From Heterotrichella gracilis (lineage: Eukaryota; Sar; Xanthophyceae; Tribonematales; Xanthonemataceae): a DNA stretch of 49,441 bases. The stretch spans positions 1-49,441 of the forward strand of contig JAULBX010026341.1 in assembly GCA_032358255.1 (NCBI GenBank), written 5' to 3'. The notes beneath the pieces were generated by a model. That model made no database searches, was not told the DNA's origin, and worked only from the letters and a program-made list of their open reading frames with translations. Below are positions 2,037 through 34,900 of the stretch, one piece after another. How positions within the stretch are numbered: the first letter of the stretch is position 1; every line of letters begins with the position of its first letter. Position numbers and translations under genes: made by a program.

Positions 2037-2246
2037 TAATCAGGGAAGACCCTTCATGCACTGCAAGGCCGCCATCATCTCCTTGGGTGCTGTCCACATT
2101 GCACTGAGTAGCTGCCAGCTCAGCTCAAGGAGCCGTTCACCATCATGGTAGGTTCTTCACGCATTGCGAGACCTGAGTCCTGAGAGCACCCCCACCATCA
2201 TCTCCTTGGTTGCAGCAACCTCGCGCTGAGTGGCTGCCAGCTCACT
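2037..2246. repeat. two decayed copies of the receptor's last exon
   Basis: About 2037-2128 and 2152-2246 repeat the terminal coiled-coil exon (2281-2372), sharing phrases such as GCCATCATCTCC and GGCTGCCAGCTCA. Both lie downstream of the true exon in the gene's sense direction and carry substitutions and small gaps. They would fall in the 3' UTR. Confidence 0.75.
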
Positions 2247-2280
2247 GCACCTCGTGGCAATACGCATCAGGGATGACCCT

Positions 2281-5200
2281 TCATGCAGCGCGGGACCTGA
2301 GCACCGCCAGCACCTCCGCCATCATCTCCCTGGTAGCAGCCACGTCGCGCTGAGTGGCTGCCAGCTCATTTCGCAGGCTCGTCAGCTCTGACCCACTTGA
2401 TGAGTAACCTGCAGGGACAGAAATGTTTAATTCGAATAGATGATCAGTTATGACAACAAATTCAAAAACATTCATCATGAATATTATATAATCAGCAGAC
2501 GATATAACATAATATTGGGTCCCTCTTGAATGTCTCAAAACATTCCTGTTTATTCCTGTTAATTCCTGTGGTATAGCTTTCATACTAATTGAAAAACACA
2601 AGTTAACAACGTATTATTCATTTGGGTGTCAAAGGCGTACCATCCTTGCTGTTGATTGGCACCACCACCGCATCCTCCATGCTCCCCTTGCCTCCATACT
2701 CCCCAGCAGCGGCGCGCCGTTTCTTGTCCTTGCTGCGCTTCACCAGCTGCTTGATGCAGAATATGAGCAAGGCCAGCCCAACAACCGCCGCTGCAACGAT
2801 CCACAGGCCGCACACCTACAGCATAAGAAGGGGTGTCATGGACACATTCAGAAACCCTAAACCCTGAACCATAAAGCTGAGCGTGCGGGCCAACCCAACA
2901 ACCCTTAACCGTAAACCCTAAACTCTACAGATCACCCTAAACCCTAAACAGCAGCTGGATCCACAGGCCGCACACCTGCAGCATAAGAAGGGGTGTCACG
3001 GTACAGCCAGAACACTAATACCTGAGCGCAAGGCATCCCAATGACCAATGTTTCATCAAATGTATTACAAGATTTATTACAAGATGTATTCAATAAATTA
3101 CAGTTATGTTTTGGTGTGGGATCCACACTGGCTGAATATGAGCTGGCTTGCATTGGACTCTCCGCTGGTGCAGGTTGACAGGTGGGAGATGTGCTCGGCC
3201 CAAGATTCTTTTGTGTGGCCCTACCCAGGTTCAGGGTAAAACATCTTGGCCATGCGTTTCTTTTCTAGGGTTTTAGGGTTATTATTGCGCCCCACTCACC
3301 TGGCTGAACATGCTGGGCCTCGAGATCCTTCAGCGGCTGGTTCTCAAGATGCCCTTTGGTGATCATGTAAAAATCCATTTCAATTTATTCCATCTAATTA
3401 CATATTTTATGGGTTTTAGTTGCATTTGTTTCTGTGTGTGATCCGCACCTGACTGAACATGAGCTGGCTTGAGTCAGACATGCCGACAGCTGAGAAATGT
3501 ACTGGGCCTCTACTTTCTCTAACAGCCGGTTCTCGAGCTGCTCCTTGGTGATGACATAAGAAACCATTTCAATTTATTCCATCTATATCCATTTTTTCAT
3601 GGGTTTTTATTGCATTTGTTTTTCTGTGTGATCCGCACCTGGCTGAACATGAGCTGGCTTGAGTCGGACTCCCCGCTGGTGCATGCCGACAGTCCAGAGA
3701 TGTACTGTGCCTCAAGCTTCTCAAGCAGCTGGTTCTCAAGCTGCTCCTTGGTGATGATGTAGGAAAAGTAATCGGAGACAGTGATGGGTGTGCCCACTGG
3801 GAAGGAGATGGCCACGTTCTGGACATCGATGGGGTCGCCAACTGGAAACAAGGAGCACCCTATTTTAGGGACAACTAAGGGACAACTTTGCATGGCTTTT
3901 GTAAATGCATTCACACGGCACTATTTACATGTTTGTCATGTACTTGAAATGGAGTGTGCAAGTTGCTCCTTGTGATGATGTAGGAAGAGTAATTGGAGAC
4001 AGAATGGGTGTGCCCACTGGGAGGAAATGGCCACATTCTGGACATCGATGGGGTCGCCAACTGGGGGCAAGGCACATTTAGGCAATCAGCTATCTATCCA
4101 AACAAGCAGTACAGCCAAACAAGCAGTACAGCCAAAGTAGTAAAAACAGGGACACAATGATCGGTGCAGCACAGATATGGTTACTTTTATATCAACCATT
4201 GTACATGTAGGTATTCAACTTGGTGTAATCGGTGTGGCCACCGGGAAGGAGTTGGCAATGTTCTGGACGTGTATGGGGTCGCCAACTGGGTGCAAGGCAG
4301 GTAAGTGGTCTAAGAAGGGAGTGTTTGATGGGGTGGGGTGGCTGTAAATGCATGGCCTGTGGCTAAGCCAATGATTTACTAGGATAAAACTATGTACAAT
4401 AATAAGTAGGGTAAAATTATCTATAGTATTTTTCTATCATAATATATGAGAAAACATATGCATACAAAAACACACCTGGTATCACAATACACTTGTAAAA
4501 TTGTCTTGTGGCCGCTGAATGTCCACCACCATAGCTACATGTATGTAATTGAGTCACTAATGATAAATGGCATTAAGAAAACCCACCTGGTACCACCGTG
4601 CACTCCATGGAGGCTATCTCCATTGCCACTGGTGTATCCACCACCATGGCCACCGCATGGCCACTGGTCAGCACATCAACCTGCGCCTGGAGCTCCTCGG
4701 GGTTGTTCCTACACAGGCCAGGGCACTGGTCACGTGGGATCGTCCTTTTCAAATCTCGCACATTCGTGGGGGTTGGGGTGGGGTGTGGGGGTTAGGGTGG
4801 AGGATGTTATATCTAATCAGGAAAAAAATGGAGCAATTTCCCGCCCCTGGTGGCTGGTCAGCACATCCACCTGCGCCTGGAGCTCCTCGGGGTTGTTCCT
4901 ACACACAACCCAGGGCACTGGTCACGTGGGATAGTCCTTTGGAAACCTCGCACATTTGCGGGGGCTGGGGTGGAGTGTGGGGGTTAGGGTGGGGGATGTT
5001 ATATCTAATCAGGAAAAAATGGAGCAATTTCCCGCCCCTGGTGGCTGGTCAGCACATCCACCTGCGCTTGGAGCTCCTCGGGGTTGTTCCTACACACAGG
5101 TCAGGAAACTGGTCACGTGGGATCATCCTTTTGAAATCTCGCACATTCCTGGGGGTTGGGGTGGAGTGTGGGGGTTAAGGTGGGGGATGTTATATATATG

Positions 5201-8200
5201 ATCAGGACGATTTTGACAATTGTAGCAATTCCCTCCCCTGGTGGCTGGTCAGCACATCCACCTGCACCTGGAGCTCCTTGGGGTTGTTCCTGCACACATG
5301 AGCACTATAAGCGCTGGACGGTTCGAAATGTCAACCTGGCGGGTGAGGGGACCGAAGGATCCCTTTACTACAGGGTCAGAAGGTAAGGATAGGACTTTTC
5401 CCCCTTGCCCTTCCAGTTGACAAACCCTAAACCTTAGACTGCTTCCGTGCCGGGGAGGTGGGCGCTGTTTACACGGACAGTAGCAACAAGCCATGCATTA
5501 TGCAGGATGAACCGTCTATATGGTTTAGGGTTGGTACGCCAGCTGCATGTATGCAGGTCCTGTGGGCTTACCATGACATGCCTGTGGCCAGTACGCCGTA
5601 GTTCCTGAGCACAGGCATGTAGTCGGTCCAGGTGACAACTGCCTTGCCGGGGAGGTCGTAGACTGAGCTGATCTGCAACAACACCACAGCAGGGTTCAGC
5701 TGTGCACAAGGGTGTAGGGTTAAGGGTTCATAGATGGAGCTGATCTGCTACAGCACCCAGGCATGGTTCAACTGTGCACAAGGGTTTAGGGTTTAGGGTT
5801 AGAGTGAAGTTACGCTAACCCTAACCCTACGCTGGCTCTGTCATAGCTGATGTGCAACAACGCCAAGGCCAGGATGGAGCCCCAGCCCAGCACCAGGCAG
5901 GGTTTAGGGTTAGGGTCTAGGGCTTATGGCCTATCGGTGGACCATGCACACATGGGCAAGGTTGTGACATGTGAGGCTACCTACCGAAGCTGTCAGAGAC
6001 TGTGTGGTGAGGATGGCCAAGGTGTTTGCAATATAGAACGAGTAGAAAAGGGCCAGGATGAAGCCCCAGCCCAGCAGCAGGTAGGGTGTAAGGTTAGGGT
6101 TCATGGCCTATCAAATGACCACGCACATATCGACAAGACATGGGAGGCTACGTACCGATGCTGTGAGGGACTGTGTGGTGAGGATGGCCGAGGTGTTAGC
6201 GATGTAGAAGGAGTAGACAATGGCCAGGATGAAGCCCCAGCCCAGCACAACCAGGCGGGCAGGGATGGACACTGGATAGGTGTCTGGGTATACCAGGTAG
6301 AGCCCAAGGAACCGCAGCACGCCATCAACGTAGCCAAGGAAGGGGTCTGTAGGAATTTGGCAAGTTCAATGAGTAATACGATTGCGACACACTACAGGGC
6401 AAAGTGGTTTGTGTGCCCTGGGTGGGGTTCAGGGTAGACCAGGGCCAGGTAGATAAAATAAAAAGGAACGGCAGCAGGAAGGGGTCTGCAGGGTTGTGCA
6501 TGCCTCAGTGTCGGGGCACAGCTCACAGTTTTCAACAAGTGCTACGCATTGCAGATGCCATGGCCAAACAACCATATGAGATGCCTCTCAAAACAGAACA
6601 TCAGATGACCAGAGGCACAGAGAGATACTATCCTACAGCTACAAGGGAGGCCGCCAATCCAATGAGCACTCACGTTTTTCGTCGATGTACACCGATGCCG
6701 CACGTTTCTCTGGGTCCGTCAACCCATACCACTCAAAGATCACTGTGAACACCGGCAGGATGATGATGGTCAGACCCAATGCCAGCCACAGCTTCCAGTT
6801 GAAGCTCTTGGTCCATGACCAGTAGCCCTGGCTCTGGTAGGTGGCCTGGGTGAGGGTGGTCAGCCCGTTCTTGTACACAGCTGAAGTGAACTGCGGCAGG
6901 AAATGGCGTGAATTATACCTGCGGCAAAGTGCTGGAACAGGCATAATTTCCTCATTTTCATTTGGTTTTGGTGATATCTTGCACCTGATGAATCCCACAA
7001 TAAATGACCAGTGACCCTGGCTCTGGTAGGTGGCCTGGGTGAGGGTGGTCAGCCCATTCTTGTACACAGCTGAAGTGAACTGCAGCCAAATGGGCTCCAT
7101 ATATACAAATGTTGCAACATTTATGCAACATCCATAATTACAATACAACATGTATGCAAAATGCTGGAATAGGAGGGGCTTGCACCATTGTCTCTTGTTA
7201 CAGCAAATAACAAAAAAAAACAGATATCCAAGAAACTAATAAAAACAAAAAGCCCAGTAGCTCAGCTTTGGTGAGTGAAGAAGGGAGCGCCGTCAGCCAT
7301 TCACGTATACAGGTAGCATGTTCAGTCCATGCATCACTTCCTTGCACCCACCAGGATGCCATCCCCAATCTCTGTGGGGGTCACAAACATCCCCGCGGCT
7401 GACACGTCGCACGTGCTGCTTGCATTCTTCATTGTATTCACCATGTCCTCCCACACAATGCACACAAAATTCCAGTCTACGCCCTCCACCTTGCCCATGC
7501 TGCTGGATATCCTGCACCCAAATTAGTTTAATTAACAATCCATTCATTGAAAGATTTGAAACTGCACTATTGTGGGATATGTAGGGTTTGGGCTTTGTGG
7601 TTTAGGGTTTATCTATGATTTTTTACATTGTATCCACCATGTCCTCCCACACGATGCACACATAGTTCCAACCAACGCCCTCCACCTTGCCCATGCTGCT
7701 GGATATCCTGCAGCAAATTAGGGTTTAGGGTTGACAGTGGGTGGTGGACAACAGCATCAGGAGACCAAACCATGCCATTTTGTTTCTTCAGGCCGTGCAA
7801 CACTAAGGTCCTTTTAGTGTCAATTTACCGTCCCCAGGCCGCAAACTCCAAGCCCTAAACAACAACATTAATGTTGTACTTACCCTCTCCAGAGCGCGGG
7901 CATGTACCCATCCGAGGTGTTGGGTGTGTCAAAGTCGCAGCGCACCATGGGCGACCACTCACTGATGCAAACCCGCAGCAAGGAGAGGTTGGTTTAAAAC
8001 CCTAAACCCTACACAGTCAGATCTTCAGTACAGTAACGGTGTCGCGGCGACCACTCACTGATGCACACCCGCAGCGGCTTGATCTGCACACCAGTCACCC
8101 TTGGCTTGGTTTGAAACCCTAAACCCTAGACCTTGCTGCAATGTAGCACTACAACCATAATAACAGTCAGTGTTGCACCTGCGGTGCCAAGCAGCCCTGG

Positions 8201-19600: not shown

Positions 19601-22600
19601 CAGGTGCGGTGGTGGTGGGGGGGGCAATAGGTGTTGGCAATGGAGGGTGTGGTGGTGGTGGTGGCTGTGGCTGTGGTGGTGTGTGTGGTGGCGCCTGCGT
19701 TCCTGCGCAGCGCCGAGGGCAGGAGGTTCCTGGCCAGCCTGTTTACCCTGCAGGTGTGGTGATGGGTTGAGGAGATGAAAAGAAGTGTTGATCTATGAAT
19801 AAATGGATTTTATTGTTTATTACTACCTTACTTTGAAACGAATATCAGATACTGTAGTGCTAGTAAGGTTTTGCGCAACCAGTTGAAAAAAGAAGACTAA
19901 TCCAACTTATGTCATCCAACAAAATAGAATGTATCAAAACACGCTACTCATATCCTGTACCCCCCTGCTGCAGCCCCAGCTGGTGCGTGAGGCCACCGCC
20001 AGCGTGACGAAGCCAAATACCACCAGAACGCTGCAAACGTTAATCCTACTGAAAAGCTGCCAATGCCTTCAATTGTAATTTCAAAATGCCCTCAAAGATA
20101 TTTAGGGCTTTTCACGTTACAACCATCCCCCATTAATTGCTATTTTTCCTCTGCCGCAGCCCCAGCTGGTGCGCGAGGCCACTGCCATCGTGCGCAACCA
20201 GGTGCCCTCGGGCAGGCGCAGCGTGCTGGATGCATACGGGGAGGTGGTCGCGGGGGCATGGCGCCACTCTGCAGGGGCCTGTCGGGAGGAGGTAGAGAGC
20301 ACGCTGGTGCAGGTGGGGCACTGCGCTATAAACCCTGAAACCATGCCCAAGGAGATAAGCCCTAAAGCCCTTGATCTTGAACCCTAGCGCAGCTGGTTGC
20401 ATTAGGTAGTGGTCCATGGGAGAGGTGGTGGCGGGGGCATGGCGCCACTTGGCAGGGGCCTGCCAAGCGGATGTGGAGGGCATTACATTCAACCCTGAAT
20501 TACCTAGGCATCACATTTATCTCCAATGCCCCAAATGAACTCCACCATGACCGCCAACCTGCCCCCCCACCCGACTAAACCCCCACCTTCCCATCCCCAG
20601 GGCCTGATCAGCTCTTGTCTGTCATGCTCCTCACCCACCCTGGCCGCTCACCTCCCCCAGATACTGCCCCCCCTCCACGCACTCAAAAGCTTGCACTTCA
20701 AAACACTTCCCCTATGGCGCCCACATACCCTCTCCTCTTCCTCCCTTCATTAAAGTTTTTCTTCAAACCTCCTACTTATCCCCCATCATCTCTTCCCCAT
20801 CCCCAGGGCCTGATCAGCTCTTGTCTGTCATGCTCCTCACCCACCCTGGCCGCTCACCTGCGCCGGGTGCTGGCACCCTCCATGCACTCAAAGGCCTGCA
20901 GCTCAAAACACCCTACAACCTCCCCTTATGCTGCCCACACCCCTTTGCCCCTCCTCCCGTTTATAAATTGTTTTCCAACCCGCTACTTTTAACCCCACAA
21001 CCTCCCCATCCCCAGGGCCTGATCAGCTCCTGCCTGTCATGCTCCTCACCCACCCTGGCCGCACACCTGCGCCGGGTGCTGGCACCCCTGCACGCGCTCA
21101 AGACATGCCCAGGGGTGGAGGCCGCGCTGTTTCGCCTGCACCAGCCACTGCTTTTCCGGGCGCTGGCTGCTGCCAATGGGGGGGTGAGGCGCAACGCGCT
21201 GGAGCTGCTGGTGGAGGTGTTTCCGCTCGTGGTAGGTGGCGGTGGGTGGGTGTTTTAGCTCATGCTGAGATGTGGGTGGTGGTGGTGGTGGTGGGTGGTA
21301 TATGGCGCTGTTTCGCCTGCACCGGCCACTCCTGCTGAAAGCGCTGGCAGCTGGCGTGGGGTGGCGGCGCTCACACATCGGTTGGCTGATGCGTGGGGCG
21401 ACGAGGCGCCAGGCGTGCGGGTGGTGGCGCCCACACACAATAAAACCTAAAAACCCAAAACTGTTACCGAAATCCTAGCAACCCCATGCAAAGGCCATGT
21501 TGACCCCATATCAAGGGTAATAAGGTAACATTAGTCCCATTATTATCTTGTTACCCTTGCCCCATACAGAAGCCTGAGAGCCGTAATAGCCCATCCATTG
21601 CCCCACAGGACCCCTCAGGGAGTCGTGAAGACACAGCTGCCCTGCTGCACCGCCAGGTGGCAGCGCTGGCCGACGGGTTGGGTGACGAGGCGCCAGGCGT
21701 GCGGGTGGTTGCGGTGGGTGGTACCTGCAGCGTGCTGAGCCGCATGTGGGAGCTGCTACCGGGTCCGGTCACTGCCACGCTCATCAAGAGGCTGGCAGGT
21801 GGGTGGTTACTCGTATGGTGATGCTAGTAATGATTGTAGTGGTGGCGGCGGTGGCGGTGTTGGTGGTGTAGGCAAGGGTAATAGATAGTAGTAGGTTGCT
21901 GTATCATTTTGTGCTGTTTTCATTTGTAAGTACATTGATTTCTAGTGTCCTCTGTAAACGCATGAAGGTACTCATTTTCCAACCCCCTTCCCTTTGCAGA
22001 AGACCTTGCCTTTGACGCCTCGAGCCCCGCGGTGCGGGCGGCTGTGCTGGAGGGTTTTGCGCTGCTGCTGAAGAACCCCCTGAGCCACCCCATCATGCGC
22101 CTGAGCCTCAAGGGCGTGGCGGGGCACATCTGTGACGCCAGCCTCAAAGTCAGGGTGGCCGCTGCTGACCTGCTGCTGGAAATGAGGTAAGCAAACTCTA
22201 CCCTTTCAAACCCTATAGGAAGTCCCTGAGCTGGCTCTTACCTGCTCCCGCGCAATTCTTAAATGCTCAAATCTAAACCCCACACGCACCTGCACAACAT
22301 TCCATATCACGAGCTTGTCCCCAAAAGCGAAGCTGCTGTGATGGCAGGCGACGCGCGCCACCAATGCACCGCCGCACCCTACACCCTTCATCCATACACA
22401 CTGGACCACCTCCAAACCCTAGCTTCTTGACCTCATGCCCTAAACCTTAAAACTTCAAACCCCGCAGGCACCTGCACGACGTGTTTAACGAGCTGGCCTC
22501 CCAGGAGGGGCTGCTGGCAGTCATGGTGGGGGACGCGCCACCATGCGCCGCCGCATCCATCGCCTGCTGCTGGCCACACTGCTCCCGCCTCAACCCCAAA

Positions 22601-25600
22601 CCCCAATCAGATTTCTGACCCTGAATTTTGTATGCCACAGGCACCTGCGTGACATGCCCTTCTACGAGCTGGTCCCCCAGGAGAGGCTGCTGGCGGTGAT
22701 GGTGGGCGACGCGCCACCCATGCGCCGCCGCATCCAGCGTCTGCTGCTTCCCACCCTGGGGTCGGGGCCTGAAGCAGCCCCTGGGGTTGCCAACCTGCTG
22801 CGCCATGCTCCGGCTGCGGGCAGGAGCTTCTGTCAGTTCTTGGCGAGCGGCGGCGCAGGTGGGGTGGCAGTGGCGGTGGCGGCGGCTGCGGCGGCAGAGG
22901 TGGTGGGGGTCAGTGGATTAAAGGGTGTGCAGGTCGTGTAAGGAAAATATTTTATCGGTTTGTCCTTTCTTGGCCCCATGCGCCGGCTGCGGGAAGGAGC
23001 TTCTGCTCGTTTCTGGCGGGGCGGGAGGGCTCGTTTTACCATATTTTAGCAGCCTTGCCTTTGTCACTGTCGAAAGAAAGTGATGCTGGGTTACCACGAG
23101 GTCTGCAAAACCCTGACACCGCAAAACCCAAACACGCTGTCCGTCTGCTGCACCAGATCTGACCTGGTCCCAACCCTAAACCAATCCTAACAAAAACCCG
23201 CGCATGTGCTCCAGGTGGCGCCAGCCTGGCAGACATTGCTGAGCTGGCATTGGCGCTGCAAGGACACCTGGCGGCGTGCCACACCATCGAGCCCGGGACC
23301 TCCCCGGCAGTGACGGGGCGGGGCAAGGGGGCCGGGCGCAAGCGGCGCCAGGGGAGGAAGGAGGGCGGAGACGCTGGGGAGGGTACAGGGGAGGATGAGG
23401 ATGTTGAGCAGGTGAGGGTGTAAGGGTGTAGGGTTTTCGTTTATCAACACACATCTGCAGCGCCCCTGTAAGGCCCAGGAAATTTGCTTCCATTCCAATA
23501 ACTGCAGAAATAATAATTTTATTCCGGCAGGCGGTTGAAACCCCGGCCACCTGGGGCGCCATCCTCTCAGGCTGGGCAGAGCTGTGCTGCGGCCTGGCAA
23601 GCGCCGCCACCAACAACCCCAGGCTAGGGTTCGACCAGGAGGCGCTGGAGGAGCTGCTGCCAGCTGGCAGCCTGACAGAGCTCCTGGATCTGTGCCCCGA
23701 TGTGGGGTGCAGGGGGCACGTGCTGCGGGTGGGGGGCGCGGCGCCGGGGCTGGACGCGGCGGCGCAGCTGCGGGGCAGGTGAGCTTTTGTGCTTGGTTGT
23801 CCGGTTTTTGTTTGTGCGTCACCGTGTTGGGTGGTGGTGGGTTGGGTGGTGCAGGTGCGGGGTGGTGGGGTGGTGCATGAGACACGTGCTGAGGGTGGGG
23901 GGTGCGGGGCGCCGGGGCTGGCAGCGTCAGCGGAGGTCTGGGGCAGGTAGGCTTCCCCCGTAGAGCCAATTTCTTTTGGTGCTTGGTTGGCGGTTCTGTT
24001 GGCTGGTGGCAGGGTGGTGGGGCGTGCTGCAGCTGTGGGGCAGGTGGGCATTGGTGGTGGTGGCCGGCGCTGGTGGGTGGGTGGTGATGGGGGTATGGTG
24101 AGGGTGGGTGGTCGGGGGTGGGGTCCGGCCCTGCCATTGAAAACCCTCCTAGGGTCCACTGCTGTGCGCACACCCTCAGCACCCTCCATTTCCCTCCAGC
24201 AGGACCCTGGCATGGCTGGTCTTTTTCAAAAGCCCTCTTAGCGTCTGGCCCCACCACAGAAACCCTCCTAGGGTCCGGACCCCTTCACCCTATTTCCTCC
24301 CGTCCTACAGGACCCTGGCTTGGCTGCTCTCTCCCGGCACCGCAGAAACCCTCCTAGGGTCCGGCCCCGGCGCAGAAACCCCGCTAGGGTCCACCGCTGT
24401 GCTGCACGCCGCACTCAAGTGCCTGGCAGCAGGGCCAACAGGCGCCCGGCTGGTCGCGTGTGCGGCTTCTGCGCTGGCGACACCTGGCAGTGCCGAACGG
24501 GGAGGGGCGGCAGCAGTGGTGCTGGCAGGTGAGATTAGGGCTTAGGGCTTCTGTTAGGTTTGTGTGGTGTTAACTTTGCACGCTGCACTCAAGTGCCTGG
24601 CAGCAGGGCCAGCTGGGTGCCAGGTAAATTTGGAGGAAACTCGGCTAATTTACTGAACCGACTCACTGTCTTTCGCGCGATTTTTCGCGCGCGACGCACA
24701 CCATAACTTTGCTCACAACGTGGTAAATTTACTGTTCCCGACGCGCGCGACGAGCGCTCCGCGCGCGACGCACCAGTAAGTTTGGGGGAATTGGAGGCAA
24801 TTTACTGTTCTAATGACGCGCGATTTTAGTACTTTTGTTCGAAACGAGGTAAATTTACTGTTCCCGACACGCGCGACGAGCGCTCCGCGCGCGACGCACC
24901 AGTAAGTTTGGGGGAATGGGAGGCAATTTACTGTTCTCATGGCGCGCGATTTTAGTAGTTTTGTTCGAAACGAGGTAAATTTACTGTTCCCGACACGCGC
25001 GACGAGCGCTCCGCGCGCGACGCACCTGTAAGTTTGGAGGAATGCGAGGCAATTTACTGTTCACATGGCGCGCGATTTTAGTAGTTTTGTTCAAAACGAG
25101 GTAAATTTACTGTTCCCGACACGCGCGACGAGCGCTCCGCGCGCGACGCACCAGTAAGTTTGGGGGAATGNNNNNNNNNNNNNNNNNNNNNNNNNNNNNN
25201 NNNNNNNNNNNNNNNNNNNNNNNNNNNNNNNNNNNNNNNNNNNNNNNNNNNNNNNNNNNNNNNNNNNNNNGGAGGCAATTTACTGTTCTCATGGCGCGCG
25301 ATTTTGCGTTCCCCGTCACGCACCAGTATTTTTACCCAAACGTACGAAAATCTACGTAATATTAATGTTCGCATTGCTTTTCGACTTCAAGTCGGACTTG
25401 CATTGCGTTTAGTTTGCCTGGGGTCCTTGTTCTCCGCATTCCCTGTTGGATTGTGCTTACAATATGGATGGAAGAAAGAAACGGAAAAATCCCAAGGAGT
25501 CGAAAGAAGGAAAAAAACATCCACAGCTGACAAGCTAGCCATAGTCAAGTCTCCAGTGAAGCGTGGATCAAATGGCAAACCAGAGCGCTTAGCATTGTTA

Positions 25601-28600
25601 ACCTTAAGAGCATAGCACTGAGCACAAGTCTACAGCCTTTATGCCGCTTGGACCCCTCCCCTACCCTGCCCTTCCAACCTCCCCCTCCCCCCTTCCCCTC
25701 TTGCACAGACGCACCCACCCACCCTCCCACCTCCAAGACCCCCTCCGCACCCCCCTCCCCCCTGCACGCCTCACAAGACACCCCACCCTGCGCCGGTACC
25801 TTGACTCAACAGTTTAGGGCAGCCTCGGCCTGCACCGCCTGTTCAGGGCTTCGAGTCTTAAGTGAACAAAAGCACGCAGCAACCACGCATTCCCCTCCCC
25901 ACACCACCCAGGCGCCACCCACACTTCACCTCCACCTTCCCCCACCTCCCACCAATCCACCTCCCATACCCCCCAGGCGCCCACCCCACCTCCCCCGATG
26001 TCTGCCCCGCCTGCGGGGGCACCCTGCGCCGAAAGGACCTCCTGCAGTGCCTAAACCTTGAATGATGCCTACCACCACCTCCCCCAAAAGAAAACACTTT
26101 CCCTGTCCCACCCCACGCACAACCTCCACCTACCTCCACCCACCCAATCCACCCACCACCCAGGCGCCCACCCCCCCTCCTCCGGTGCCTGCACCGCCTG
26201 CGGAGGCACCCAGCGCCCAAAGGATCTACTGCTGTGCGATGCCTGTGACGCAGCATACCACCTCACCTGCCTGGACCCCCCACTGGCGAAGGTTCCCGAT
26301 TCGGATTGGTTCTGCCCCCCTTGCAGCGCGGCGATGGCGGCCATGCCCGCTGACCTGGCGCTCAGGTGGGTGTGGGGGCATGACACCCTAAACCCTGAAC
26401 CCTACTCTTCAGACTCTGGACCCTACTACTGCCCCCAGGGTGTGCAGGGGTGGGTAGAAGGCATCTTAGGATGAGTATGTGGGAATACCCTGAACTTCAA
26501 ACCCTAAACATGGCCCCACCAGACAGCTCAAATGGTACGCGGCTGCATACGCGAGCAGCAGGAGCCATGGCTGGTCGGCTACATGTCCAGTACTATACCG
26601 TCTCCACATTTTTGTCCTTCCTCAACCCTATTTTCTAACCCCTAAACCCCATTCCTGTTGCATGCCCCGTGCCATCTGACTTGCCTAGACCATGTTAGGG
26701 TTTCACAGTTCAAGGTGCCAGGGTTATTTCACACACACGTCCTGTGATGGCCCTCTCCCATACACACTCTCTTATTAAATCCGCTATATTGAACTAATCT
26801 AAAGCCCCTAACCCTAATCCACCTTTTCAACAGGTGCATTGAAGTGATGTTCCAGGACCCACCCATGCGCGCACTCCTCCTCGCCAGCCCCTCCCTCCCC
26901 ACCCTCCTGGCTTCCCTCCGAGCCTGCGCCGACGCTAAAACAGCCTCCCTTGCTGGGGCGATGGACCACCACGCCAGCTCATCACCTGTGCCCTCCGATA
27001 GGGTTTGGCTAGGGTGTGGCGATGCGGTGCTGGCCTACTGCAAGGCTGCGCTGCATGTCACATTGAGCGGGGCGGATGCGAGCCAGGTGCAAAACCCTAA
27101 CCAGAAAGCGCAAAAACCCTAGGCCCCGAACCCTGAATGCGGTAGAGTGCCTTCTGACGGCCATAGACCACCATGTCAGCTCAGCACCTGCCCCAGCTGA
27201 TAGGGTTTGGCTAGGGATTGCTTGCATAGACTCGGCATGGCTGATGGAAAGAGGACATAAGTTGAGTCTAATACCATCGAATCCTAAACCCTACACGAGG
27301 GTTTGAGACCCCACCCTCCTCATATCTTGGCATTGCAGGTGCAAGGGGAGGCTGTGGGCATGGCAGATGATGGGGAGGGCACACCCCTGCTGGCACCTGC
27401 CATGGCGGGAGGGCCACCAGCGGGGGAAGAGGAAGGAAGCAGGTGGGGGAAAGCACACAGATATCACCCTCTCAGCCCTAAACCTTGAAACCTAAAATGT
27501 TTTGTGACAGCCATAGACCATTGACAGCGCATGACCAACTATTTGGTCCAGCGCTAAATGGCTGAACCTGAAGGTAGCCCTGCGTAGCATTACCCTACAC
27601 CCTATGTGTCGCACAAGTCCCCTACCACCCCTTGCTCTAGGGCCTAGTCATATGGGCTCCTCGCCACTCAGAAAAGCACCGTGCCACCTATAGGGGTTAG
27701 GATAAAGACCCCAATTTTGGCCTCCTACCGAAACCTCATACCGCACATGCAGAAACCCTAACCTAAACCCTATAAATTGCGGAAGCCCCCTACCACCCCC
27801 GCTGCAAGTGTCATGCTTCATGACCTAGTCATGTGGGCTCCTCCCTACCCTGTACACCAACGTGCCAGCGTTAGGGTTTAGGGTTTACACCCACACGGCA
27901 GAAACCCTACCCTCAACCTGGTACGCAACCTTGACCCGCATACTGCGCAGGACCCCTGCGCCTCCAGCTGCAAGCGCCATGCTGAATGGCCTATAGTCAC
28001 ATGGACCTAAGCACCCCATGGGATGTAAGGATTGGGAATATGGACCCACCATGCAGCAACCCTAATTTAAACCCTAACATGATGTGCAGGCCCCCAACCA
28101 CCCCAGCTGCAACCACCATGCTCAGTGACCTAGTCACATGGGCCCAAGCCCTGCTGCCGGGACTGGAAAAGCCCCCGCCAGGTGGCGCCGCCAGAAAGAG
28201 TGGCGGGAGTGTCGAACAGGAAGGGGGGGTGCAGCAGGGGGCGAAACGCGCTCGCAAGGGGAAGAAGGGGAAGGCATCGGGAGGAGAGGAGGGCGGTGGG
28301 GCGCGGGTGGAGGAGGGGGCATACAGGTGCGTCCTGGAATGGGGCGGACTAGATACCGAGATTGGACCTAGGTCCTTGTGCGCGATATGTGTACTCTGAT
28401 AATAATAGCAGAGCACAGCTTGAACCACCACATGCTCCCACACCTAACTTCTGAACCAACTCGCCATTTCCGAATACCCCCCTTCTCAAAACCCGTGTCT
28501 TAAGTCTTACACCCCCTCACCCCCCGCCCCCACAGCACCCTCCTCCCCACCCTCCAAGCCCTGCTGGCCATCGCATCAGAATCCGCGGCTCTAGGGGTGC

Positions 28601-30724
28601 TGACCTGGCGCACCCACCCCACCCCTGCCACCCACATGTGCCACCTGGCCACATCCCTCATCACACACACCACCACCACCACCACCGGTGCCACGTCAGC
28701 GGAGGTGGGGGTGGAGGTACTCCCCTGCCTGGTGTCCCACGCTGCCAGGCTGGCTCGGGTGCTGGCGGTGGGGGGTGGGTGTGTGGAGGGGGTGGATGCG
28801 TCTGGGCAAGGTGAGCGATTCTTGGGTAATTGGGAGGCGGTGGCGTACTTGCATGAAAGATTGTACCTGCAACATTTTGTAAAATCAAGATTTGCAATAT
28901 CTGTTCGGAAAGTCACATCCAGGGAGCCACCCTTGCTCACAAGGCTGTTGAAGTCTTTTTTATGTGTTTCACACTTTCTAAATATGTATTATAATAATTC
29001 AAATATCTAAGGATATCTTAAGAAAGTTACTATTTTTTGCAGACTCCCACTGCCAGCTGCTGACCACCCTCCTGGCCTCAGCCCTGGGTGGTGAGGAAGC
29101 TGACAGCGTGCCAGGTGGCGCTTCCACACTGCCCTCCCTGAAACCCTTCCTGCCAGGCCTGGTGGCCACCCTCAAGGGGGGTAGGGCAGGGGGGTCGCTG
29201 CTGGAGGAAAACCCTAGGTAAGGGTTCATCGCTCTCAACTCTGAACCCAAAGCCCTGATGGCTTTGGCAGGGCTGTCAACAGAGGCGCACCCCATATACG
29301 CCATGCCCTAAACACATGTGCCATACCACACCAAATTGACGTTGTAATTGGAACGAGCCATGCCACCAATCACGTGCTGCTCATAACTCCTTCACCCTAG
29401 GTAAGGCTCTGGCAGGGTGTGTAAGGAAGTAAACCCCTTATAGGACCCTGACTGTCAAACTCGTGGCGGCATATGAACACATTTGCCCTGTGTCCCCAGG
29501 TGGCTTGCGCCCCTGGCCCGCCACCTGGCATCGGGCCTGGAGCAAGAGGAGGGCAGCGGAGTGGAGGCACCCATTGGTCAGGGGGAGGGGCAAGGGCCGG
29601 AGGGGGACCTGGCCACATTCAGCCTCATTTCGGGGGCAGCGGCAGGTTCAGGGGCCAAATTCAGCAACAGCCATGAGGCCCACCCGCTGATCAAGGCTCT
29701 GGTGCAGGCAGCCAGCTTCACCAAGGTGGGTGTTTTGTTGCTTATCTAAACAAATCAAGTGCAGTTGGGTATCTGGTTAGTTAGTTTCGTGCGTGCTGGC
29801 CATGCGGTTGCATTCGGCATCTTTCTGGGGTCAGCATATAATGGGCCCACCCGCTGGTTAGAGGCACTGGTGCAGGCAGCCAGCTTCACAAGGACAGGGG
29901 TCCTGTGCATGTGTGCATGGCTTGACACGTGTGCATGGCTGCATTTGCAGTCGGACAGGTTACCGATAATACATGCATTTCATCGTTTCAGTTGGATGGC
30001 TGGAGGGTTTTGGAGCCAAATAACAAGTCTGCACAATGTAATCGTGTTGATTTTGTTCTGTTGCCGCAGACCCAGGAGCAGGTTTCGCATGTGGCTGCCA
30101 AGCTGGCGCTGCTGAGCTGCCAGGATGGCACTGCTGGAGGCGATGTGACGCTGACAGCTGGCAGCCTGGCACTGGTTGGCCTGATGGGGTACAAGGGTAA
30201 GCATATGTGCACCACTCGTAGGTTATTGTGGATTAGGGTCGGTTGCTAGTCACAATACTCGTAGGGTATTGTGGAGTAGGGTAAGGTTTGTGGCCGGCTG
30301 CTATACATGGGTAGGATAGTCACCAGCCCGCTACTTTTACTGCATACGGCTGTCCTGTGACTGAAACCCTAGTTTGTGACAAATACAAGAGAGGCTTCCA
30401 AACTGTACGCCTGATTTGTGACTAAAACCATCGCAATGCACTTGGAACCCTCAGTCACATGACCCTAAATGCCGCCTGCTATGCCACTGAACCTGCTGTT
30501 TCCCCCTTCCCACAGGTGTGAACGTGCGGGGCAGGGCACTGAGCAGCCCAGGCACATTTGCAGCCATCACTGCAACCCTGCGCGAGCTGAAGCAAGCTGC
30601 GGCTATTGGGGGTGATGACGGGGCAGCGGATGACGAGAAGGGGGGTGAGGGCCCGCCATGTGGCGCGTTCTGCACTTGCCAGCTGGCGCTGTGGCTGCCA
30701 GATCAGCAGCTGCAGGCAGTGTAG
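16640..30724 (+). CDS. NCAPG2: condensin II complex subunit G2 (HEAT-repeat), with PHD finger
   Basis: Kleisin-associated HEAT subunit of condensin II, which loads on chromatin and drives early chromosome compaction in the nucleus. Twenty-three phase-consistent exons, 1381 aa: 16640-16726, 17158-17250, 17952-18044, 18293-18418, 18765-18900, 19318-19493, 20160-20312, 21016-21231, 21609-21798, 22000-22186, 22641-22858, 23215-23411, 23531-23778, 24311-24528, 26164-26365, 26834-27086, 27339-27442, 28090-28326, 28536-28810, 29043-29217, 29500-29725, 30070-30196, 30516-30724. Matches to animal NCAPG2 include LWRKDVPDKEGLV, EGRRFLASLF, GVEAALFRLHQPLLFRAL, DLAFDASSPAVRAAV, NPLSHPIM and SLKVRVAAADLLLEM, plus an acidic/basic linker after ASLADIAELALAL. 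The C-terminal exons resemble the family more weakly. A PHD finger interrupts the family alignment near residues 788-834. The assembly gap lies in the intron before that exon, so continuity there depends on scaffolding. Confidence 0.9.
17276..17345. repeat. CA/CCCA-rich simple repeat
   Basis: Imperfect CCCACCCAC and CACACC units in the NCAPG2 intron after exon 17158-17250. Confidence 0.8.
17644..17836. repeat. two acceptor-edge copies of NCAPG2 exon 3
   Basis: About 17644-17695 (reading VDQALAAVHSSPEE) and 17793-17836 repeat the start of exon 17952-18044 (VDQALAAVYSDPEE). Both are upstream of it. Confidence 0.75.
18635..18691 (+). other. possible cassette exon, duplicate of the start of NCAPG2 exon 5
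   Basis: This 57-nt copy of the beginning of exon 18765-18900 has an acceptor (TTTGTAG), an open frame of 19 codons starting EVPDLLDVQEAVA and a donor (GTACGT). Flanking exons join in phase 0, so inclusion would be frame-neutral. It may be an alternative exon or only a decaying duplicate. Confidence 0.45.
19107..19205. repeat. acceptor-edge copy of NCAPG2 exon 6
   Basis: Repeats the start of exon 19318-19493 about 201 bp upstream, with an internal duplication of CGGAGCTGCT and a later frameshift. Confidence 0.8.
19572..19760. repeat. two donor-edge copies of NCAPG2 exon 6
   Basis: About 19572-19605 and 19688-19760 repeat the end of exon 19318-19493 (GCCAGC, TTCACGCTGCAGGTG) with its donor and the GTGGT-rich intron start. 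Both lie downstream. Confidence 0.8.
19965..20010. repeat. acceptor-edge copy of NCAPG2 exon 7
   Basis: Copy of the CTGC(C/T)GCAG acceptor and the first codons (PQLVREATA) of exon 20160-20312, about 183 bp upstream. Confidence 0.8.
20415..20480. repeat. donor-edge copy of NCAPG2 exon 7
   Basis: Repeats GGGGCATGGCGCCACT and neighbouring sequence from the end of exon 20160-20312, about 181 bp downstream. Confidence 0.8.
20585..20900. repeat. two acceptor-edge copies of NCAPG2 exon 8
   Basis: The acceptor CCCCATCCCCAG plus GGCCTGATCAGCTC occurs at 20601, 20807 and 21016 (true exon), spacing 206 and 209 bp. The exon part stays highly similar for about 60-100 nt, then decays. Each copy is a plausible competing acceptor. 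Confidence 0.9.
21290..21440. repeat. donor-edge copy of NCAPG2 exon 8, fused to a copy of the next exon's middle
   Basis: 21304 onward repeats GCGCTGTTTCGCCTGCACC from exon 21016-21231, about 180 bp downstream. 21385-21430 resembles part of exon 21609-21798 (GGCGACGAGGCGCCAGGCGT), about 285-300 bp before it. Confidence 0.75.
22280..22565. repeat. two acceptor-edge copies of NCAPG2 exon 11
   Basis: Copies of the start of exon 22641-22858 (GCACCTGC, GAGCTGG, GGGGACGCGCCACC) begin at about 22286 and 22468; spacing 182 and 173 bp. The nearer copy has a CCCGCAG acceptor and reads HLHDVFNELASQEGLLAVM before breaking frame. Confidence 0.85.
22972..23020. repeat. donor-edge copy of NCAPG2 exon 11
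   Basis: Repeats CCGGCTGCGGG-AGGAGCTTCTG from the end of exon 22641-22858, about 173 bp downstream. Confidence 0.75.
23870..23950. repeat. donor-edge copy of NCAPG2 exon 13
   Basis: Repeats CACGTGCTG-GGGTGGGGGG and CGCCGGGGCTGG from exon 23531-23778 with its GGGGCAGGT donor, about 166 bp downstream. Confidence 0.8.
24195..24260. repeat. acceptor-edge copy of NCAPG2 exon 14
   Basis: Copies the CAGGACCCTGGC start of exon 24311-24528 about 108 bp upstream; the related phrase AAACCCTCCTAGGGTCC recurs at 24141 and 24259. Confidence 0.7.
24575..24625. repeat. copy of an interior/donor-side part of NCAPG2 exon 14
   Basis: Near-identical GCACTCAAGTGCCTGGCAGC block about 174 bp downstream of its position in the exon. 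Confidence 0.8.
24630..25335. repeat. 126-bp CG-rich tandem satellite in an NCAPG2 intron
   Basis: The junction GGTAAATTTACTGTTCCCGA recurs at 24720-, 24846-, 24972- and 25098-, exactly 126 bp apart by hand count, and the array continues past the gap. Each unit contains AATTTACTGTTC twice and a CG-dense block (GCGCTCCGCGCGCGACGCAC). Copies are very similar except the first. Its composition is unlike the rest of the window. Confidence 0.95.
25171..25270. other. assembly gap (100 N)
   Basis: Exactly 100 N, the conventional size for a gap of unknown length, inside the satellite. The true array is probably longer and the join is only as good as the scaffolding. Confidence 0.98.
25975..26060. repeat. 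acceptor-edge copy of the PHD-finger exon
   Basis: Copies the CAGGCGCCCACCCC acceptor region and the first half of the PHD exon (reading CPACGGTLRRKDLLQC), about 187 bp upstream of exon 26164-26365, then decays before the His and the last Cys pairs. Confidence 0.85.
26164..26365 (+). other. PHD zinc-finger exon of the NCAPG2 gene
   Basis: Encodes a complete C4HC3 finger: Cys-x2-Cys (CTAC), 11 residues, Cys-x2-Cys (CDAC), His (AAYHLTC), then the aromatic-preceded last pair (WFCPPC). PHD fingers commonly read histone H3 tails. The exon enters in phase 1 and leaves in phase 2, matching the preceding exon (24528) and the following exon (26834), so it fits the condensin reading frame. Confidence 0.85.
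27135..27215. repeat. copy of the middle of NCAPG2 exon 16
   Basis: Repeats GACCACCA, GTCAGCTCA and GATAGGGTTTGGCTAGGG from exon 26834-27086, downstream of it. The reading frame is not kept. Confidence 0.75.
27610..28020. repeat. three acceptor-edge copies of NCAPG2 exon 18
   Basis: CCACC...GCTGCAA(G/C)...CATGCT...GACCTAGTCA-type blocks at about 27617-27660, 27786-27845 and 27950-28010 mirror the start of exon 28090-28326. Spacings are about 170, 168 and 138 bp. Telomere-type heptamers (27871-27887) lie between copies. Confidence 0.8.
29840..29900. repeat. donor-edge copy of NCAPG2 exon 21
   Basis: Repeats CTGGTGCAGGCAGCCAGCTT from the end of exon 29500-29725, about 167 bp downstream. Confidence 0.85.
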
Positions 30725-31984
30725 AAGTGGAAGGGGAGGTTCATGTTCTCCCTACTGAGGAATGGACCATGTTTGACATGGCAAGGCTTGGGTAGGCTGG
30801 CTTGGCTATGGTTTATATTATGTATTGTATGGCAGGCAGTGGCAGGACAGGCCTGCATGGTGGCGCATGTATAGGGGTTCACTAATAATCTTGCTTATAA
30901 GGGGGAGCTCGAGCGCGTGTCCCAATGTATGTATGACTCGGCTTGGATAAGATGACTTGGTATATTTGCTTGGTACGTTGAAAGCTTTTGTTGATCCATT
31001 TGTATCATCCCCGCATTTGTTGATGGGAGGGTTTGGCCGCGCGCTACCCTTCGGCAGCTGGAGCGTAATTTTATTCTCCAGCGATTGAAAAGCAGTAGTG
31101 GTCTCTCCAAACCTTCTACCGATCTGACGACTTGCTACGGTTTGGTGCAATGTAAATGAGATCCACCGCATTGGCAATCATTATGCCACTGGCAGATAAT
31201 CCATACACAAGTGACTGTGGGACATTGCTGACGTACATATTACACTCTTGAGGAGGTGCAATGCGATCCATAATGCGAGTGGATCACTCCAGCTCTGACT
31301 CCAGCTCTGATGTGATTGGGACACCACGTTGCCGGCACTGCCGCCCCAAGCTGCAGCAATTTGCTGCATTAAACAACGCACTGCCAATAGTTGCGGTGAC
31401 TCAGGATGATCAAAATTTGCCAAATTTTGAAGATCATCATGATCAAAATCCTTCAAAGCGGCTTTGAAAGATTTAATCCAGCATGATGCCTCAGGATGAT
31501 CCAAGGCTGGAAAAAAGGCCTCCATTGCAGCACTAGCAAATGCCCTGCACTTCATTTGGTTCTGTCTGACAGGTTAGACAGTACATGTGTCTAAGAACTT
31601 CGAAGATCCGGTCTTCAAGACTTTATAACTCAACAGCCACATCTAGAGACTGGAAATGCAGTACTTAGTAGGACAACCCACAGGCAGTCACTGATTGAGT
31701 ATTACAATATCATATAAGTATACTGGTAGATATCACTGGCAGATCCTGGCAGGCTGTGAGCTCCACACTCCTCCCATTTCGCAATGTCATATTCAAGATG
31801 TCATCGTTGATGTACATGTGTCAAGTGCTTCCAACGTCTCTTGGTCCCCCACAAAGGGCTGTGGCCCCCCAGTTCCCAGCGCAGTGCGCAGTGCGCTGTA
31901 GTGCTCCGCCCACATCCTTGAACAGTGCTCCGCCTGTAGCCCTATTGTCGCATCCAGCCACTAGGCCCCGCCGCCAATCAGAGA
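30725..31984. other. convergent spacer between NCAPG2 and the phosphoesterase
   Basis: Holds the 3' ends of both genes. A TGTAA, the usual algal polyadenylation signal, occurs at about 31149 on the plus strand. A minus-strand open frame at 31555-31181 (about 124 codons, Ala/Ser/His-rich) has no recognisable family, and the GATGATC phrase repeats within it. I do not call it a gene. Confidence 0.4.
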
Positions 31985-34900
31985 TCACTGGCACACTGTG
32001 ACAGCTGGCTCTACTTTTCGCCCATTGCGCAACACCTCCCGCGTGTCCCAGTCCACCACAAATGGTTGCGCACCCCGCTCACCGCTGCGCAAGTAGTCCA
32101 CCGCTGCGTTGACCAGCAGGATGTGGCTGCGTGTGGCGTGGTGGGGCACCCAATAGGCGCCATGGCTGCACACAAAATTGATGCCACAGTTAAATCCTTG
32201 AATTTTGCTTGTTCAGTATGGAGCCCTTATTCACACGGTTTGCGTGTGGCTGTTTGTGACGGTTGCATTATCTACAGGCGGAGGCCGTGCATACCCCCTG
32301 CACACTGAACCAAGATTTTCTAGATAGGGCTCCAAAACGTCTCCCCAGGTGCACAATCCCCCGCAGGTTACCGTGAAACCCTGCACCGCACTGAGCCCAA
32401 CTCGTGATGCTCACCACCCATAGCCTGGGTACGTGCGCATGTCCTGCACCCCAAGCCCTAAAGCAGGGTTTTATGAATAGTACGGCAGAAATACCCCTGC
32501 ACCAATATGGTGTAACAAGGGGGGGGGAGGGACGCGTGCACCTCCTGCAACACCAAACCCTAATCTCCGCACCCTGCACCGCATTGCATCCACCCATTGA
32601 GTAAGTGCCCCAATAACCACAGTCAGGCGCATGCTTATCCCCTGCCCACGACACCTTAACTCCGCACCCCGCACCGCACTGCACCCACCTGTTGTGTATG
32701 TGTCCACACACCCACAACCTGGGGGGCGTGCGCATCCTCTGCACGCATTCCATCAGATCCGGGTCACCCACATGCTTGCCCCTGGTGAAGTCACCAAACC
32801 CTGCAAAATAAAATATGGTTTTCAGCAAACCTGTATACATGTTAGGTTGAGAAATAAACAAATGAGCTCACTTGCGTGCCTAGATTTTACACAAGTGAGC
32901 CACATTTTTCTGTCCTTTTTCAATCCCATATCTCTTTATTCGGTTTGATTTCCTTTGTTAATTTCTATCTCTTATATAACATTGACACAAGTGCGCAAGA
33001 TGATGTGCTCCCAGGCGTGGGCTCTAAACGCTGCCGAGGGCCTGATACCAATATTCTGCTTGCTTACTCAGGTTCACACCCACTCCAACCAACCAGACAC
33101 AAATGCCCTGAACCCTCAACCAGGCCCGGGGGCAGTCAGTCATGCGTACCATATGGCGGCCCGTGTGTGACCAAGATGTCGCAGGGCGCATGCATGGGCA
33201 GCACCGCCCGCCAGTGCGCAGCAGCTTCGTCCCTGTTGTAAAGCTGCGTGCATGGAATGGGTTGTCAGCAACAGTTCAAAACAAACATTCAAACCCTTTT
33301 ATGAAGCGCTGTGTTGAGTTTTCACTCCTTTTGGCATTGTGATGTGTAATAATATGTCCCAGCAGTGTAATTAGACTCGTTTTGGTGGGGGCTATGCGCA
33401 ATTGATATGCCGACTTATGCACGCCTTTGGCGTTCATTATCTTTACTTTTCTTTCATGGGCGCAAATCTACACAGCAGACCGGTGGCTGCATTGGAATAC
33501 AATGGCTCATGTGACTGTGCCACCATCCTCGGTATGTACATTGAACCTGCCTGGAATTTCCCACAGAAAGCCGGTGTGTTGGGGCTGGCAATCACGTTGA
33601 GCCTGCATGGCTGGGCAGAGGTGTGGCCCCTGCGCTTGCTGCACAGCGTCAGGGAGGTGGATTCGTTGACCAGCACACGAGCCGCTTTCCCCTGCAGTTA
33701 AGGCCACCACGTATGCGCCTCATTAAGGAAGAGGATGGCAGGTTTGCAAGATGAAGGGGTTAACCACTGTTTCGGCGGTGTGCGATTCATGTTGTAACCC
33801 TGTCGCAAATGGGACTAATTTGTGATGCTAAAGTGCATGTGAATCAAAACAACCACAGTTCCACTTCTCACCATGCTTTTCTTGATGAGGTTTGTCGTGA
33901 CTGATCCAGGCCAGAAGTCCATGTTCCTGCAGAAAGTAGCACCAATTATAAACAGGAAATGTATCTGAGCCTCACCTCAAGCAAATGACGTTTTGACTAG
34001 CAATATTGCATATGCATAGTGGCAAACTCCACCATGCCACCGTAACGATCAATTAATAATTTTATGTCTGAATTACTTGACCTGAATTTCATGATGCCTT
34101 GACGCTCAGATTCTTTATTTAATTGCAGACAATTGTATCTATTACAAGCTGCCCAGAAGCCCATGCAAATCCTATGCGCACAACTCATCCACATACCCGA
34201 AAGTCACCACTTTCTCTTTGTGGCCGAGCCCGCTCAGCCACTTCTTGAATGGCTTCATGTCACTCTCACTGTTGATGCCAATGTCACCCGCCACTATGAG
34301 CATGTCCCCTGCAGGGCCAATCTTAGTATTGGAAATCTAATGGCAGAATCTTAGAATCGGAAAATCCAATGGCAGACACTATAGTAAGATGGTAGGGAAT
34401 TAAAATAGTTTATGTAAGTTGCAGGGCCGGACCGACCTGTGAAAGTGGAATGCAACAGGCCCTTCCTCTTTTGTTCATTTTCCAACTTCAAAAAAATAAC
34501 CCGCCTTCGTGTACCTCTAGCAGGCCCATCCTCCTTTGTTTTGCAACTACAGGAAATTTTCATTTCATAACATTCACCCACCTTGCGGTACCTCCAGCAG
34601 GCCCTTCCTCTCATGCAGGTTGTGCATGTCGCTCACGCACACAATGCGAGCCCCACTGCCGCGAGGCTCTCCGCTTTGCAGAGACTGGGTTGGCATGGGT
34701 AGCATCGCGCTGGGATGAGGATGTGGCGGGCCCACAGAGGGACCCAGACGTGACACCCCGCCTGATGGCCCCATACATGGTGCGGGTGCCATCCCATCTG
34801 GTGGTCCCGCATACCCTGCGTGTGGTGCGCTGTGTAACAGGTTACCGCCGGGCTGGTCAGGGGTCCAGTCGGCTTCAAATTCAACCCAGCCTTGATTGTC

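Follow-up and report, generated by a model that had tools for sequence, protein, structure and literature searches.

Introns are usually held to lengthen through transposons or unseen small insertions, and Vaughn and Bennetzen in 2014 and Schiml in 2016 reportedly traced tandem duplications in plants to patch-mediated or paired-nick repair. In Daphnia neointrons, repeated staggered double-strand breaks give direct repeats that lengthen the introns (PMC4202315), and Pace et al. (2009) described vertebrate duplications that form by capture of proximal DNA (PMC2671141). Interstitial telomeric repeats at 142 horse loci were inserted at breaks, sometimes with direct duplication of the flank (PMC7215372); fill-in by CST/Pol alpha-primase at complementary 3′ overhangs gives tandem duplications (PMC8355091); and introners form repeated families, some with target duplications of 3-9 bp (PMC9860276). 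Here we analyzed a 49,441-nt stretch of Heterotrichella gracilis (Xanthophyceae; GenBank assembly GCA_032358255.1, contig JAULBX010026341.1, positions 1 to 49,441; hereafter the window), whose introns hold diverged direct copies of the edges of neighboring exons. We term these copies echoes, the distance between two copies the offset, and the sequence between them the filler.

Judged by the accessible portions of those reports, each system matches the echoes in part. Daphnia introns share the intronic direct repeats, and there too an exon-end repeat can lie in the intron; the Daphnia exon-end repeats, however, measure 4-12 bp and belong to new introns, whereas the copies here are mostly 30-150 bp long, have two preferred offsets and often enclose telomere-type filler (PMC4202315). 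The duplications of Pace et al. are likewise short and closely linked, with filler or microhomology, and occasionally involve splice sites or exons, but the accessible portions give no quantised distance and no exon-edge focus, with 4 partial exon/intron donors among 824 (PMC2671141). The horse loci similarly combine target duplication with telomeric repeats, sometimes together with apparently random sequence; unlike them, the events here are tied to exon edges, dense and without telomerase-priming polarity (PMC7215372). Overhang fill-in by CST/Pol alpha-primase duplicates the flank, as we propose here, but yields plain tandem products without long filler (PMC8355091). Introners are also insertions of intron size; here, unlike introners, 59 of 63 fillers were non-repeated within the sample outside telomeric sequence, and the flank copies are mostly 30-150 bp (PMC9860276). 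As far as the accessible portions go, none of the nearest four systems (PMC4202315, PMC2671141, PMC7215372, PMC8355091) shows two quantised offsets, an exon-edge focus or such density, and exon-edge echoes with two preferred offsets were not found in the literature, judged on titles and abstract openings with subscription journals mostly outside.

The sample comprised 289 kb of the 68.5-Mb, 903-contig assembly, namely the window (contig C383 in the numbering used here) and 24 further 10-kb stretches (240 kb). Contigs were chosen by their number and sampled at a set position, which gave twenty-five such stretches; one (L009) was left out because it had no pairs and a bacterial look. Gene models were ab initio predictions by a hidden Markov model (HMM) that was trained on the same data, gave 406 GT-AG introns in the 289 kb and mis-called part of the echoes as exons. 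Several tests were picked after the data had been seen, and the p-values are therefore guides only.

Copies of exon edges in introns are real and extend beyond the window. Comparison of the window with itself by the Basic Local Alignment Search Tool (self-BLAST; E < 1e-4) gave 60 direct pairs and 1 inverted pair. These were concentrated at 2.0-8.7 kb and 18.6-29.9 kb; no pair started between 8.7 and 18.6 kb, and beyond 30 kb we found only an echo at 32551 and pairs that belong to a gene-region duplication at 40-47 kb. Across the 25 sequences, 212 direct pairs lay at distances of at most 1 kb versus 24 at all larger distances (density ratio 65), inverted two-arm pairs at most 1 kb apart numbered 6, and a dinucleotide shuffle (one per sequence) gave 0 near pairs. 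Identity between copies was 67-97% outside one satellite. The density of events was uneven (mean 5.1 per 10 kb, variance 17.6, maximum 15 per 10 kb); 19 of the 24 further stretches contained events and 5 (L017, L020, L021, L027 and L032) contained none. A rough extrapolation from 5.1 per 10 kb gives ~30,000 recognisable events genome-wide. An earlier note on the window had placed echoes at exon edges with offsets counted by hand, and self-BLAST returned most of these within a few bp: 190/191/200 (4664-5298), 189 (6815), 196 (7430), 184 (5867), 181 (20238), 206/208 (20590), 182 and 173 (22275-22758), 166 (23706), 174 (24403), 186 (19962), 168 (27591), 167 (29677) and 194 bp (25928). The same note had called local duplication rampant in this genome, which was supported for the part sampled, and the lack of genome-wide enrichment that it had named as counting against its proposal was not what we saw in the 289 kb sampled.

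The pairs are associated with splice junctions. Among 181 pairs with an offset of at most 300 bp, 113 spanned a predicted junction, as compared to 67.5 (standard deviation (SD) 6.3, maximum 84) in 300 random rotations. Clean echoes, in which one copy was intronic and the other touched an exon, numbered 89; a junction faced the echo in 80 (39 donors, 41 acceptors), 1 had only a junction facing away, and 8 had none within 40 bp. Acceptor copies had been said to lie always upstream and donor copies always downstream, and this was true for 80 of the 81 clean echoes whose nearest junction lay at most 40 bp away; the direction is largely forced by geometry, because function can persist only in the copy that adjoins the rest of the exon. 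Copies of exon interiors also occur. Once formed, the echoes look dead. If a neutral copy lies beside an exon under purifying selection, mismatches over the three successive codon positions should run at about d, d and 2d, and the values for 80 echoes were 11.4, 9.9 and 19.8%. Net indels were not divisible by three in 19 of these 80, and many recent echoes retained the splice motif. The proposal that a duplication is tolerated when one intact junction remains was supported. Of 22 filler-bearing recent clean echoes, 14 had the intron-side end of the copied piece 1-13 bp into the intron, 3 had it in the exon and 5 had it 21-38 bp into the intron, a non-uniform distribution (Kolmogorov-Smirnov (KS) p 1.3e-4, with the 3 exonic ends counted as 0); over all 80 echoes the ends were more scattered, and less similar pairs more often reached deep into the intron. 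Breaks limited mainly to exons, together with selective removal of the wholly exonic ones, would give the pattern of recent ends, and a boundary set by splicing-related structures might give it as well.

Most recent events (at least 88% identity, n = 31) had the layout copy-filler-copy, with a filler of at least 30 bp in 27 and of less than 30 bp in 4. For the 25 filler-bearing recent events with an offset of 90-240 bp, the extension of homology past the copied piece on both sides averaged 1.5, versus 1.9 for the null and ~65 expected for a decayed tandem unit, and none of the 25 attained the lowest simulated tandem score; the result speaks for that class. A weak excess of homology was seen in 127 partial pairs of all ages, in which 13-16% of flanks exceeded the 95th percentile of the null. 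With filler in 27/31 and no homology past the copy in 25/25, most recent events are not the plain tandem duplications of 170-210 bp that the earlier note had proposed. They are direct repeats around unrelated DNA, the arrangement by which staggered breaks of the Daphnia type are recognized. Of the 63 clean-echo fillers, 25 had a match elsewhere in the 289-kb sample, 21 by telomere-type sequence alone and 4 by other matches of 29-73 bp, so that 59 lacked a non-telomeric match there. No repeated family of the introner kind was seen among the 63 within this sample, and a mobile family was rejected as their source. A local inverted patchwork was also considered, and fillers showed no inverted enrichment and some direct enrichment: exact words of at least 11 bp in common with the local flanks in direct orientation occurred at 14% upstream and 13% downstream, versus 2% by chance on either side. 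Two fillers searched against the whole assembly (by a search that skips very common words) matched only themselves, and a paralog search with two echo loci returned one self-match only for one and itself plus telomere-like stretches for the other. Candidate chains of nested events, of interest as natural empty sites, numbered 10, three of them within the satellite.

The layout is seen at 6815-7086 and 29677-29893 among the features of the window listed below. Pfam searches of its genes, with partly hand-joined, shortened models, gave PF12422 (condensin II G2-type subunit, E 8.8e-44), PF14772 (an NYD-SP28 coiled coil at 11-16 kb, which we take to be DRC-type), PF00149 (calcineurin-like phosphoesterase) and, with a score under the curated cut-off, PF00060 (a ligand-gated-channel domain).

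2069..2368, minus strand: three-copy echo array at the 3′ end of the Lig_chan-like gene, offsets 123 and 247 (self-BLAST 2069-2244/2192-2368, 76%)
2798..3025, minus strand: acceptor edge 2798-2867 and echo 2958-3025, offset 160, 86% (self-BLAST)
3313..3766, minus strand: array of exon-edge copies, offset 189, 78% over 265 bp; also the pair 3107-3209/3617-3721 (self-BLAST)
3737..4297, minus strand: real acceptor edge 3737-3853 with echoes 3959-4072 (222, 90%) and 4225-4297 (82%); no match between spacers reported
4664..5298, minus strand: true tandem array, period 190-200, 3.3 copies, 88-89%, homologous spacers; minority class
5867..6247, minus strand: donor edge 6051-6247 and echo 5867-6076, offset 184, 81% (self-BLAST)
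6815..6897, minus strand: real acceptor edge of the Lig_chan-like gene (predicted exon 6674-6918), 95% identical to 7004-7086
6898..7003, minus strand: filler between the copies, with itself as the only assembly match
7004..7086, minus strand: echo of 6815-6897, offset 189, mostly called exon by the HMM
7430..7721, minus strand: acceptor edge 7430-7526, filler with TTTAGGG tract, echo 7626-7721, offset 196, 91%
18606..18802, plus strand: acceptor edge 18737-18802 of the condensin II G2-like gene, upstream echo 18606-18672, offset 131
19107..19405, plus strand: acceptor edge 19312-19405, upstream echo 19107-19209, offset 205
19431..19772, plus strand: donor edge in three copies (19465, 19575, 19725)
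19962..20192, plus strand: acceptor edge 20148-20192, upstream echo 19962-20006, offset 186, 89%
20238..20482, plus strand: donor-side exon piece 20238-20301, downstream echo 20419-20482, offset 181
20576..21101, plus strand: three-copy acceptor array, offsets 206 and 414, long homology; predicted exon start 21016
22275..22758, plus strand: acceptor edge with two upstream echoes, offsets 173 and 355, the nearer more similar
26957..27216, plus strand: exon-interior piece 26957-27014 copied to 27159-27216, offset 202
29677..29726, plus strand: real donor edge (predicted exon 29500-29725)
29727..29843, plus strand: filler, unrelated to the sequence after the echo
29844..29893, plus strand: echo of 29677-29726, offset 167, 90%
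32551..32716, minus strand: donor edge 32647-32716 of the metallophosphoesterase-like gene, echo 32551-32621, offset 96

A single period of ~180 bp had been reported for the offsets; we found two modes instead, at ~105 and ~190 bp (158 events, after removal of compound offsets and satellite). Unimodality was rejected by the Silverman test (0/300 bootstraps), also for the 39 events at identities of at least 86.5% (p 0.017). The two modes persisted when each of the 87 clusters contributed a single event, whether drawn at random (p 0 to 0.01 in ten draws) or taken as its most similar one (9/400), and likewise at E < 1e-4 (137 events, 3/400). The window held 21 of 36 events in the ~190 class (165-222 bp) and 4 of 36 in the ~105 class, and the other stretches held 46 of 122 at 165-222 bp and 36 of 122 at 90-121 bp. 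The earlier note had suggested that the spacing may reflect nucleosome-phased breaks or replication slippage; no helical phasing of the offsets was detected at 10.4 bp (power 0.48), the strongest period being 10.7 bp (power 3.3).

Fillers are enriched in telomere-type sequence. Telomeric 7-mers occurred in 38 of the 63 fillers and 10-mers in 21, as compared to 10.8 (SD 3.0, maximum 20) and 3.5 (SD 1.7) in control stretches of repeat-free introns with equal length and distance from the edge. Conversely, 44 of 148 intronic telomere tracts lay between two repeat copies, versus 11.6 (SD 3.3) by chance. TTTAGGG tracts lay within 12 bp of the left copy in 13 cases and of the right copy in 5. The presumed insert often holds telomere-type repeat, as telomeric insertion at breaks would leave it. 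TTTAGGG-type repeats are found in introns and close to the starts of four contigs (C140, C526, C712 and C466), where the array of C712 starts ~134 bp inside the contig and is partly degenerate; TTTAGGG is presumably the telomere repeat of this species. As a separate observation, the intronic tracts were oriented with respect to the sense strand, 57 of the 71 tracts in the 3′ half being CCCTAAA and 37 of the 77 in the 5′ half TTTAGGG, perhaps since CCCTAAA can act as branch point plus pyrimidine tract. Telomere tracts were densest within 40 bp of exon edges, repeat-free introns included.

Introns with a single echo were longer (median 444 bp, n = 55) than repeat-free introns (277 bp, n = 280), which agrees with the association with longer introns that the earlier note had drawn. 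When the whole offset was subtracted, the lengths of single-echo introns matched the repeat-free set (KS p 0.83, n = 55; p 0.53 in a related test, n = 50), and subtraction of the copy alone fitted more poorly (p 0.014 and 0.04). This bookkeeping favors insertion of filler and copy together. At 36 edges with two echoes and a stretch that allowed comparison, the nearer was more similar in 27, the farther in 6 and the two were tied in 3 (p 1.6e-4), with an effective n nearer 30 because in about six cases one array is counted from either side and some of the supposed edges are really echoes that were predicted as exons. Multi-echo spacings were roughly additive (222/444, 206/414, 189/392 and 114/230), in part reflecting true tandem arrays. 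From the earlier interpretation, rampant duplication, tolerance and longer introns stand, and the plain tandem unit and the single period do not.

We favor, at a probability of about 45%, serial local repair insertions of filler plus duplicated flank at exon edges as the process that lengthens these introns. A single event would put ~105 or ~190 bp just inside the intron, consisting of filler (often of the TTTAGGG/CCCTAAA type) and a duplicate, mostly 30-150 bp long, of the neighboring exon edge. It may begin with a staggered or two-nick break, one nick being exonic and the other just beyond the splice motif; fill-in of both overhangs would duplicate the flank, and the ends would be joined via filler DNA, presumably inserted and not pre-existing. 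Wholly exonic events would be removed by selection and edge-crossing ones would survive, because the exon-contiguous copy keeps the junction. The remaining copy would become a dead echo subject to neutral decay, and later events would enter between the exon and an older echo, moving the latter outward. It is possible, if doubtful, that a length-ruler process of repair or replication adds quantised patches at exon edges, recruits telomere-type DNA and is what chiefly lengthens the introns of this lineage, leaving an outward age gradient of dead copies; in such a process copied flank and new DNA would trade off, and the ruler would account for the quantised total length.

Several results weigh against repair insertion in this form. 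Copy and filler lengths were interdependent, their sum falling at 122-164 bp in 7 of 54 events versus 14.7 ± 2.8 after permutation, which argues against simple staggered-break repair because that model predicts no such dependence. A CTNAY branch-point-like motif was present upstream of 7/15 real acceptors and 1/15 acceptor echoes. The stretch just past the echo was also telomeric at an intermediate level (7-mers in 25/63, 10-mers in 10/63), and the polarity expected from telomerase priming (TTTAGGG left, CCCTAAA right) failed (Fisher p 0.84; longest tract per filler, p 0.30). Pointing the other way, base composition upstream of these acceptor echoes was slightly more acceptor-like than random intron (p 0.038). 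The scarcity of CTNAY at echoes and the constrained sum favor insertion of the copy alone, beside pre-existing filler. This is what proximal-template capture, resembling synthesis-dependent strand annealing (SDSA), or template switching at a fork would produce: after a break or stall ~105 or ~190 bp away, perhaps at an intronic telomere tract, the nascent end would re-copy the exon edge and return, and the "filler" would be old intron. Such capture accounts for the constrained sum, for branch-point motifs kept at the real acceptor, for fillers that form no repeated family and for the strongly direct orientation (212 direct versus 6 two-arm inverted pairs at most 1 kb apart). Repair-mediated duplications from nearby DNA provide a precedent in the accessible portions of PMC2671141; 181 pairs here lie within 300 bp, with junctions that only an ancestral site would define. 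Template capture fits less well with the intron-length bookkeeping (KS p 0.014 and 0.04) and with roughly additive multi-echo spacings in which similarity drops outward, and it gives no reason for the copied piece to end preferentially at the splice motif. We regard template capture as a tentative alternative that is rather unlikely to be correct.

Plain tandem duplication across the junction, of a ~105- or ~190-bp unit whose intronic portion has since become unrecognizable through decay, seems improbable as a general explanation. Full-unit arrays do exist (4664-5298, 20576-21101 and cases in L019, L029 and L030), 4 of the 31 recent events have a filler of less than 30 bp, the direct words of at least 11 bp common to filler and flanks exceed chance, and long intron matches are more frequent among less similar pairs; yet 0/25 recent filler-bearing events had the homology expected at that age. 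Tandem duplication is refuted for most recent events and probably true for the minority arrays, which perhaps arose by later slippage on an existing copy-filler-copy. That echoes are functional, as alternative exons or as decoy or recursive splice sites, is highly unlikely: many recent ones keep the splice motif, but the mismatch rate at the first two codon positions is roughly half of that at the third, as for a neutral copy, and 19/80 echoes have net indels not divisible by three. In intron gain of the Rogers type, tandem duplication of an AGGT-bearing exon segment is said to give rise to a new intron, which would likewise place exon-edge copies in introns; this origin was rejected as having hardly any chance of being right, the predicted arrangement, in which the first copy supplies the donor and the second the acceptor at the same place, appearing in 1 of 181 pairs of these gene models. 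An assembly artefact is just as implausible despite the gap of 100 N in the window (25171-25270), because copies differ by 3-33% outside the satellite, and events recur in 19/24 other stretches.

Some features of the sampled sequence stand apart from the echoes. The satellite at 24708-25305, which is GC-rich and unlike the echoes (126-bp period, 3.6 copies, 96%), lies inside the condensin-like gene and runs into that gap, the sole one of its kind in the window. A direct duplication at 41797-47469 (offset 3.28-3.52 kb) holds two tandem genes, which from their translation, with no family search, we presume to be LRR/F-box-like; no echoes are listed there. Self-BLAST also gave no echoes in the DRC-type gene region (11062-15801), and a CTGTGG hexamer array of 14.5 copies occupies the contig end (49356-49441). 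Within the 289 kb, 25 self-palindromic hairpins with aligned lengths of 29-418 were found (e.g., L022:8799-9206, L018:6657-6755 and window:14077-14120), possibly a second repair product. The omitted stretch L009:1-10000 (contig C1, 894 kb) has a GC content of 0.36 and four intronless open reading frames of >300 amino acids, without local repeats; judged by eye, with no family search, C1 is likely a bacterial contig within the assembly.

Because the exon is held by selection, each event is legible and can be roughly dated, so that how fast introns grow, in what sizes and where the breaks fall can be read from a single genome. If related species show the two size classes and the telomere link as well, intron growth would be tied to a particular repair pathway and perhaps to the geometry of chromatin.

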